In this document: positions 19,611-21,168 of the stretch, one piece after another
Numbering within the stretch: position 1 is the first letter of the stretch
Layout: each line of letters opens with the position of its first letter
DNA from: Chitinophaga pinensis
GTDB lineage: Bacteria > Bacteroidota > Bacteroidia > B-17B0 > Aurantibacillaceae
Assembly (NCBI GenBank): GCA_945860225.1
Contig: CAMAPT010000009.1
Span: forward strand, 1-64,000
Length of the DNA: 64,000 nucleotides
Direction of reading: 5' to 3'
Position numbers and translations under genes: made by a program
Notes under the pieces: generated by a model
Database searches by the model: none
What the model was told of the DNA's origin: nothing
Seen by the model: the letters and a program-made list of their open reading frames with translations, nothing else

Positions 19611-19877
19611 TATGAAATAGCCATTTGCTGAACGCACAAACACAAATGAAGATAAATGGCGTATAACATATGACAACTAAAAAAAATAAAAATATACTTA
19701 TGAAATAGCCATGTTTTCCGAAACACAAGCACAAATGAAGATAAACTGGCTAAACCATATGACAACTAAAAAACAATAAAATCTACGTATGAAATAGCCA
19801 TGTTTTCCGAAACACAAGCACAAATGAAGATAAACTGGCTAAACCATATGACAACTAAAAAGCAATAAAAATATACA
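19611..19877 (+). repeat. three tandem 88-90 bp repeats abutting the aminopeptidase P start codon
   Basis: Units start at 19611, 19699 and 19788 (88, 89 and 90 bp), each with TATGAAATAGCCAT, and the array ends exactly where TATGAAATACACAG begins the gene. Units 2 and 3 are nearly identical; unit 1 is diverged. Each unit has ATG-AAA-TAG, a copy of the gene's start region closed by a stop. Each can form a hairpin: ATAGCCATTT with AAATGGC-TAT in unit 1, TAGCCA-GTTT with AAACTGGCTA in units 2 and 3. Units 2 and 3 also encode an identical 14-codon frame, MKINWLNHMTTKKQ (19735-19779, 19824-19868). There are no unique spacers, so it is not CRISPR. Confidence 0.9.
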
Positions 19878-19878
19878 T

Positions 19879-21168
19879 ATGAAATACACAGCTATAAAAA
19901 AAGAATTATTTATTGATAATCGGAAAAATTACTCAAAACATCTAAAACCAAATTCATTAGCCTTATTCGTAAGTAACGATATTCTTCCAACAAATGGAGA
20001 TGGGTCTTTGGGATTTGTCCAAAATAGTGATTTATTTTACTTAACAGGCGTTGATCAAGAAGATACCATTTTAATGATTTTTCCTGACGTAAAGGACGGA
20101 AAACATAAAGAAGTATTATTTATAAAAGAAACTAGTGAGCTGATTGCTATATGGGAAGGCGCTAAATTAACGAAACAGCAAGCAACCGAAACTAGCGGAA
20201 TTGAACACGTATATTGGCATCATGAATTTGAAAAAGTGTTTAAAACATTTGCTTTTCAAGCAGAACATTTTTATCTAAACAGCAATGAACATGCTCGCCG
20301 TTACATCAATATGGAAACAGCAGAAATGCGATTTATTAAAACGATTCAAAGCCAATTTCCTTTACATCGTATCGAACGCTCGGCGCCAATTATGCACCGT
20401 ATACGATCTATAAAACATCCTCTTGAAATTGAATTAATGCAACAAGCTTGCGACATTACTGAAAAAGGATTTCGTCGTTTATTAAGTTTTACCAAGCCGG
20501 GAGTAATGGAATATGAAATTGAAGCCGAATTAATTCATGAATTTATCCGTAATCGTAGTAGAGGATTTGCATATGGCCCAATAATAGCGAGTGGTAAAAA
20601 TGCCTGCGTATTACATTATGTTGAAAATAATAAACCTTGTAATGATGGGGATGTTATCCTACTAGATGTAGCTGCCGAGTACGCAAACTATGCGAGTGAC
20701 ATGACTCGTGCAATACCTGCCAATGGAAAATTCACAAAGCGTCAACGCGAAGTGTATGATGCCGTTTTACGCGTTATGAAATTTGCGACTAACCTCCTTC
20801 AAGTTGGAAATACCTTTGACAAATACAATAAAGCTGTTGGAGATTTCATGACTGAAGAATTATTACAACTTGAATTAATAAAAGCCGAAGATGTAAAAAA
20901 CCAAAATCCAGCATGGCCTGCTTATAAAAAATATTTTATGCATGGTACTTCTCATTTTATAGGGTTAGATGTGCATGATGTTGGTTTTTTTACAGAACCC
21001 ATGCAAGTTAATATGGCTTTTACAGTAGAACCTGGAATTTATATACCAGAAGAAAACCTCGGAATTAGGTTAGAAAACAACATTATTATCACTCCAACAG
21101 GGAATCTTGATTTAATGAAAAACATTCCATTAGAAGCTGATGAAATTGAAGCTTTAATGGATAAATAA
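19879..21168 (+). CDS. aminopeptidase P family (Xaa-Pro) metallopeptidase
   Basis: Cytoplasmic M24 peptidase that removes an N-terminal residue preceding proline. The 429-aa protein has an AMP_N-type domain (about 1-165) and a pita-bread M24 domain. The metal ligands are visible: two Asp in LLDVAAEYANYASDMTR, His in MHGTSHFIGLDVHDVG, Glu in FTVEPGIYI and Glu in GIRLENNI. No signal peptide. The start is the ATG at 19879; its 5' flank is the last unit of the tandem repeat array, so translation or transcription may be influenced by those leader repeats. Confidence 0.93.
   Translation: MKYTAIKKELFIDNRKNYSKHLKPNSLALFVSNDILPTNGDGSLGFVQNSDLFYLTGVDQEDTILMIFPDVKDGKHKEVLFIKETSELIAIWEGAKLTKQQATETSGIEHVYWHHEFEKVFKTFAFQAEHFYLNSNEHARRYINMETAEMRFIKTIQSQFPLHRIERSAPIMHRIRSIKHPLEIELMQQACDITEKGFRRLLSFTKPGVMEYEIEAELIHEFIRNRSRGFAYGPIIASGKNACVLHYVENNKPCNDGDVILLDVAAEYANYASDMTRAIPANGKFTKRQREVYDAVLRVMKFATNLLQVGNTFDKYNKAVGDFMTEELLQLELIKAEDVKNQNPAWPAYKKYFMHGTSHFIGLDVHDVGFFTEPMQVNMAFTVEPGIYIPEENLGIRLENNIIITPTGNLDLMKNIPLEADEIEALMDK

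Follow-up and report, generated by a model that had tools for sequence, protein, structure and literature searches.

Hairpin-bearing repeat units at start codons in Bacteroidia: a probable small insertion element with (T)ATGAA as its target

The leader of the aminopeptidase P gene (pepP) in the stretch analyzed here (the window, 64,000 nucleotides of a contig assigned to Chitinophaga pinensis) is made of three copies of a dispersed repeat. These units very probably represent a small, non-autonomous insertion element that carries a hairpin and has (T)ATGAA as its target; it would be moved in trans, and its effects on translation would be a by-product. The element is about 89 letters long, occurs across Bacteroidia and is apparently undescribed so far, as no description of such an element was found in the literature searched.

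Repeat Units at the pepP Locus

The original prediction placed three units of 88-90 bp directly against the gene start, and this arrangement was borne out. Positions 19611-19877 are taken up by three units in head-to-tail order, 88, 89 and 90 bp long (TRF score 418); each of them opens with TATGAAATAG, and directly 3' of the third stands TATGAAATAC, the pepP start, with its ATG at 19879 (Table 1). The profile score of unit 1 is 59.3 bits, against 71.6 and 72.8 bits for units 2 and 3, which suggests that unit 1 is the oldest of the three. Its left-end ATG would then mark the place that the pepP start held before insertion, as judged from the leaders of relatives.

The 14-codon frame that had been noticed in units 2 and 3 is also present (MKINWLNHMTTKKQ) and makes up the last part of a 22-codon frame that begins ATGTTTTCC. 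This frame of the subtype-B units is disrupted by indels in other subtypes, and a conserved small ORF was rejected since the frame is not kept there. A different small frame, MFAxTQTxxIKLAIPYDKK..., runs through some units of relatives (L047 and L048), where its TGA overlaps the ATG that follows, whether this opens another unit or the gene; it is likewise broken by indels in other unit copies.

Table 1. Coordinates of the repeat units, their parts and the gene behind them (positions in the window)
Feature	Position	Strand	Remarks
Unit 1, diverged subtype A	19611..19698	+	88 bp; insertion unit proper ATG...CTT 19612-19699
Unit 2, subtype B	19699..19787	+	89 bp; insertion unit 19700-19788
Unit 3, subtype B, gene-proximal	19788..19877	+	90 bp; insertion unit 19789-19878
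Left-end ATG of unit 1 (ATGAAATAG, MK-stop)	19612..19614	+	leader comparison with relatives
Hairpin of unit 1, ATAGCCATTT ... AAATGGCGTAT	19617..19664	+	folds, arm-swap tests
Hairpins of units 2 and 3	about 19705-19751, 19794-19840	+	counterparts of the unit 1 hairpin
A/T-rich right part of unit 3	19841..19878	+	present immediate translation leader of pepP
pepP, aminopeptidase P (AMP_N + Peptidase_M24), ordinary host gene	19879..21168	+	Pfam

Dispersal of the Family

A BLAST search with units 2-3 as the query gave 46 matches on many contigs of this genome, and a profile built from 66 units detected 40 units in it. Purely local duplication as the full explanation is refuted by this dispersal. 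Slippage or unequal crossing-over before pepP might account for the near identity of units 2 and 3, which could stem from one insertion and one duplication, but as the sole cause of the array it is exceedingly improbable, given that some 40 places in the genome carry the unit and that subtypes are mixed within single arrays.

Of 120 related genomes searched with the profile, 62 had unit matches; they belong to several families, the highest counts being 122 (genome G102) and 48 (G118). Arrays comprise one to six units, often of mixed subtypes. Exact-pattern matches in the reference-genome collection fell in metagenome-assembled Bacteroidota, one of them labelled Sphingobacteriaceae, while the phage and plasmid collections yielded no unit match and the Rfam covariance models no match at the units. 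Three pattern matches in viral contigs were discarded, as they span just 44 bp and have no profile match. Another assembly (L188; CANHHZ010000226.1) was rejected as a strain comparison: its locus is 99.4% identical to one of the present genome, holds the assembly's sole unit and looks misbinned.

Two further features were observed among the copies. Some old units (L004, L007, L035, L041) contain a further dispersed repeat, CCTTCGATAAACTCAGGACAAG with its variants. At the end of several arrays of G102 (L271-L285), the place of a gene start is taken by a shared extension, ATGCTTTAGCATTC; this is perhaps a longer unit subtype.

Hairpin Structure and Covariation

The pairings predicted for units 1-3 exist, and folds of their RNAs against shuffled sequence gave z-values of -2.8, -1.7 and -1.9, respectively. 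The accompanying proposal, that both arms had changed together, stood in part. Two 3'-arm subtypes occur in this genome, ACATGGCGTAT and AAACTGGCTA; relative to the first, both arms of unit 1 have truly changed, from CCATGT/ACATGG to CCATTT/AAATGG. Units 2-3 have the 5' arm that is common in the genome (ATAGCCATG).

RNAalifold returned no pairs on a MAFFT alignment of the units, a result of the misalignment of the two 3'-arm subtypes, and covariation was measured by arm-swap tests instead. Matched arms fold at -10.05 kcal/mol and shuffled arms at -8.61 kcal/mol across 105 distinct arm pairs (z -10.2, a value that is no probability, since related sequences are not independent). The signal is drawn from the relatives, which taken alone give z -6.4; this genome alone gives z -1.5, which is not significant because most copies carry one common 5' arm. 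The tests thereby support the view that the hairpin is kept as a structure across copies.

Codon 3 after the left ATGAAA is a stop (MK-stop) in 185 of 192 units. This codon is situated within the hairpin stem, and the four distinct foldable units that lack the stop all retain the stem; thus, selection on the stop is inseparable from selection on the stem.

Evidence for Insertion

Relatives carry no units at pepP, thyA and UPF0173. At UPF0173 a conserved GTTTAAATTTAC block lies about 35 nt from the ATG in relatives, and the same spacing separates this block from the left end of the array in the present genome. The gap between ccoQ and ccoP measures about 9 nt in most relatives (e.g., TCTATGCTT before ATGAA) and is filled by arrays in this genome and in a second one, G015. 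Taken together, the unit-free pepP, UPF0173 and ccoQ-ccoP loci are consistent with insertion exactly at the ATG.

Units also occur inside ORFs. A RAYT/Y1_Tnp gene of another genome (L230) is interrupted by a unit at an internal ATGAA, as is an unnamed ORF (L290), and a gene for a SpoIIE-type phosphatase (L283) is interrupted twice in the same manner; the outer pieces of the latter align with positions 2-51 and 100-190 of the SpoIIE profile, each piece alone staying below the curated cut-off. The inserts in these three ORFs are 88-90 bp long, and at each junction the reading frame becomes continuous once the unit is taken out. Therefore, a start codon is not obligatory, and ATGAA is the factor common to all sites. 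A unit between ffh-like and folD-like genes (L027/L188), common to two assemblies, likewise stands at an ATGAAA that is not a start.

Position at Start Codons and Target Motif

An intact right end is found in 107 of the 120 pooled arrays, and 93 of these 107 begin an ORF, counted as such if it has 50 aa or more or runs off the contig end. Nearly all of the ORFs behind intact arrays start with ATGAA (90/93), most of them with ATGAAA (75/93), and a T precedes the left ATG of the arrays in 81%. Among the called ORFs of the window, ATGAA starts number only 14 of 51 (p 3e-19 for the array-borne excess), which identifies the motif as a target preference.

The motif is accompanied by an excess at start codons. 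Under a similar criterion, background sites in this genome begin an ORF in 11 of 24 eligible cases for TATGAAA and in 22 of 55 for TATGAA, against 93 of 107 for the arrays (p 4.5e-5 and 1.1e-9, respectively, or 0.002 when degenerate right ends are counted as non-starts); these values treat arrays as independent and take the background from this genome alone. The share is lower in G102 and G118, where 31 of 59 arrays stand at ORF starts, contig ends being left out.

Most arrays of this genome stop at the ATG of an ORF, with a like picture in relatives. The genes behind the arrays were named by sequence recognition, Pfam having been applied to pepP and its neighbours. In this genome we take them to be pepP, thyA, a superoxide-dismutase-like gene, UPF0173, a ccoQ-like gene and ccoP, together with a pseudouridine synthase, a universal stress protein and many lipoprotein or secreted genes; in relatives, array-led genes presumably include gcvH-, gcvT-, pyrH- and pirin-like ones.

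The units had originally been proposed as a possible leader or switch of pepP, which does not agree with their presence before dozens of unrelated genes and inside ORFs. Moreover, they are absent from the same-genus pepP loci examined, and elsewhere they precede pepP in only two genomes, both of another genus (L223, L243). A pepP-specific regulatory role is not supported, and it fails for pepP in this genus by the criterion given with the original proposal, which counted unit-free relatives as a refutation. A wider form of this idea is that the units are domesticated leaders, kept or spread because they tune the translation of whatever gene follows: the upstream ATGAAATAG would capture ribosomes, and the hairpin and the A/T-rich end would govern re-initiation. 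Such a role would account for a start-codon share above the motif background and for the stop at codon 3 in 185/192 units, and it agrees with the finding that pepP, universal stress protein, ccoP and pseudouridine synthase genes are unit-led in more than one lineage. Yet the unit-led genes have no evident common function, orthologues of the same genus work without units, ORFs are interrupted as well, and right ends stay while hairpins decay. On balance we regard domestication as unlikely, although it deserves some weight.

Element Ends and Array Growth

The element is laid out as ATGAAATAG-hairpin-CCATATGACAAC-A/T-rich-CTACAT and measures 88-95 bp in most copies. Arrays before genes that start ATGGA (L011), ATGAC (L228) or ATGAG (L255) still open with ATGAAAT, and the left ATGAA is therefore the element's own. 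It follows that no target duplication is visible past the ATG: the flank is a fixed (T)ATGAA with no separable duplication, and any duplication of the ATG itself is masked by the element's left ATGAA.

A comparison of 30 multi-unit arrays showed a tendency for the unit nearest the gene to outscore the leftmost one (Wilcoxon p 4e-4; sign test alone 20/30, p 0.1). Where the two differ by more than 10 bits, the leftmost unit is the worse in 15 of 15 arrays, as read off the score table (p 6e-5). Arrays thus seem to grow at the gene-proximal end, newcomers landing at the gene's own start codon rather than at the ATGAAATAG copies further upstream. Decayed remnants in which only the A/T-rich right end is left precede several ORFs, including a metF-like one, as expected if the right end serves as the leader and the hairpin is needed for movement only.

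Proposed Mechanism and Mobilizing Enzyme

According to the interpretation preferred here, the element would insert in a single orientation immediately before (T)ATGAA, the target being TATGAAA, and since genes very commonly start with ATGAAA, most insertions would fall at start codons. Because the left end re-creates ATGAA and the right end provides an A/T-rich stretch, the coding sequence would stay intact and acquire a new leader; insertions within genes would be disruptive and presumably purged. Repeated insertion at one start codon would build a head-to-tail array whose newest unit adjoins the gene. The hairpin would matter for movement only, the A/T-rich right end would act as the leader, and effects on translation would arise as a by-product of insertion. 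In Bacteroidetes, which lack Shine-Dalgarno sequences, initiation is tuned through structure and neighbouring bases (PMC6847099); an exchange of leaders of this kind is thus plausible.

Movement would depend on a trans-acting enzyme, perhaps a single-strand HUH/Y1-like recombinase that recognizes the hairpin, with TTCAT on the other strand as its target; a Y1/HUH enzyme would suit a short target combined with a hairpin (compare PMC6006769). No candidate emerged from the PF01797 and RVT_1 searches or from the flanks of Y1/RAYT genes. PF01797 (Y1) had no match at E up to 1 in this genome (G000) or in G015, both of which are rich in near-identical units, and RVT_1 had none in G000, G015 or G102. 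Derivation from a retroelement or a group II intron was set aside, as RVT_1 is undetected in this genome; reverse transcriptase genes are present in G118, G005 and G014 (L308-L311). A longer autonomous copy was also rejected, since left- and right-end pattern searches gave no convincing unpaired, well-preserved end.

The units might instead belong outright to the REP/RAYT or IS200/IS605 families, as a REP-like hairpin moved in trans by a Y1 tyrosine transposase. A short multi-copy element with a hairpin, a one-sided, short, AT-rich target and no visible target duplication would fit this assignment, and Y1 genes occur in 32 of the 46 genomes of the first survey. The absence of a Y1 match from the two unit-rich genomes argues the other way, as do the flanks of the Y1/RAYT genes inspected, which carry other repeats and never the unit, the missing GTAG foot, and the presence of a single hairpin where two would be expected; membership in these families is doubtful, though not far-fetched.

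A simple motif-target model does not explain the start-codon excess and the polarity of the arrays, which leave room for steering by expression or selection on translation. Insertion might be steered to functional start codons through a novel enzyme coupled to gene expression or translation initiation, an idea put forward because new units land at the real start and not at equivalent upstream copies of ATGAA. We think this rather improbable.

Significance

An element that targets the commonest start-codon context would find hundreds of genes in each genome at which it can land safely. Leaders would be replaced wholesale, and upstream AUGs and hairpins would be added, even within operons, while the proteins stay unbroken. 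The family would contribute to regulatory variation across Bacteroidia and cause wrong start calls and spurious small-ORF annotations; it would also provide a series of natural experiments on initiation in bacteria without Shine-Dalgarno sequences. The putative mobilizing enzyme would represent a DNA integration system aimed at start codons.

Comparison with Known Systems

Like REPs and REPINs, which are associated with RAYTs, the units are short, multi-copy, hairpin-bearing and mostly extragenic, and they may cluster or occur inside ORFs (PMC3733652, PMC6006769). They differ from REPs in their length of about 89 bp, a long single-stranded tail, the ATGAA target, the location at start codons and a foot that reads AAATA instead of GTAG or GTGG. 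In addition, no cognate RAYT was found: none was detected in this genome, and those of relatives are accompanied by other repeats. The Y1/RAYT-like genes of relatives (L153-L156, L158-L166) have distinct flanking repeats of their own, e.g., AACCTGACAGGTT, ACCTTTCGGGTC and CGGATTTGTAATCCG.

With non-autonomous members of the IS200/IS605 family, the units share a hairpin near an end and a short, one-sided AT-rich target (PMC6006769); those elements also show no clear target duplication, a trait that the left ATGAA of the unit would mask. In contrast to IS200/IS605, which has one hairpin per end, the unit has one conserved hairpin, near the left end only. No tnpA/tnpB copy with the ends of the unit was found, the present genome has no detected Y1 gene, and unit-like ends were absent around the Y1 genes inspected.

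MITEs of DDE transposases are also dispersed non-autonomous insertions. The unit, which ends in ATGAAATAG and CTACAT, differs from them in having no terminal inverted repeats past ATG...CAT and no target duplication separable from its own ATGAA. Integron attC arrays are unlikely by anatomy alone, as the units lie at scattered gene starts and not between cassettes.

By location, the nearest precedent is the TAACTGA heptamers of Beggiatoaceae, Cyanobacteria and some Bacteroidetes, which likewise form direct repeats of variable number directly upstream of the starts of unrelated genes; unlike the units, these are 7-nt, hairpin-less repeats of another sequence, for which that study describes no insertion target or empty sites (PMC4679880). 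Because the unit does not show the defining features for which it was tested against IS200/IS605, REP/RAYT and DDE MITEs, it is classed as a distinct small dispersed insertion element, set apart by its start-codon niche.
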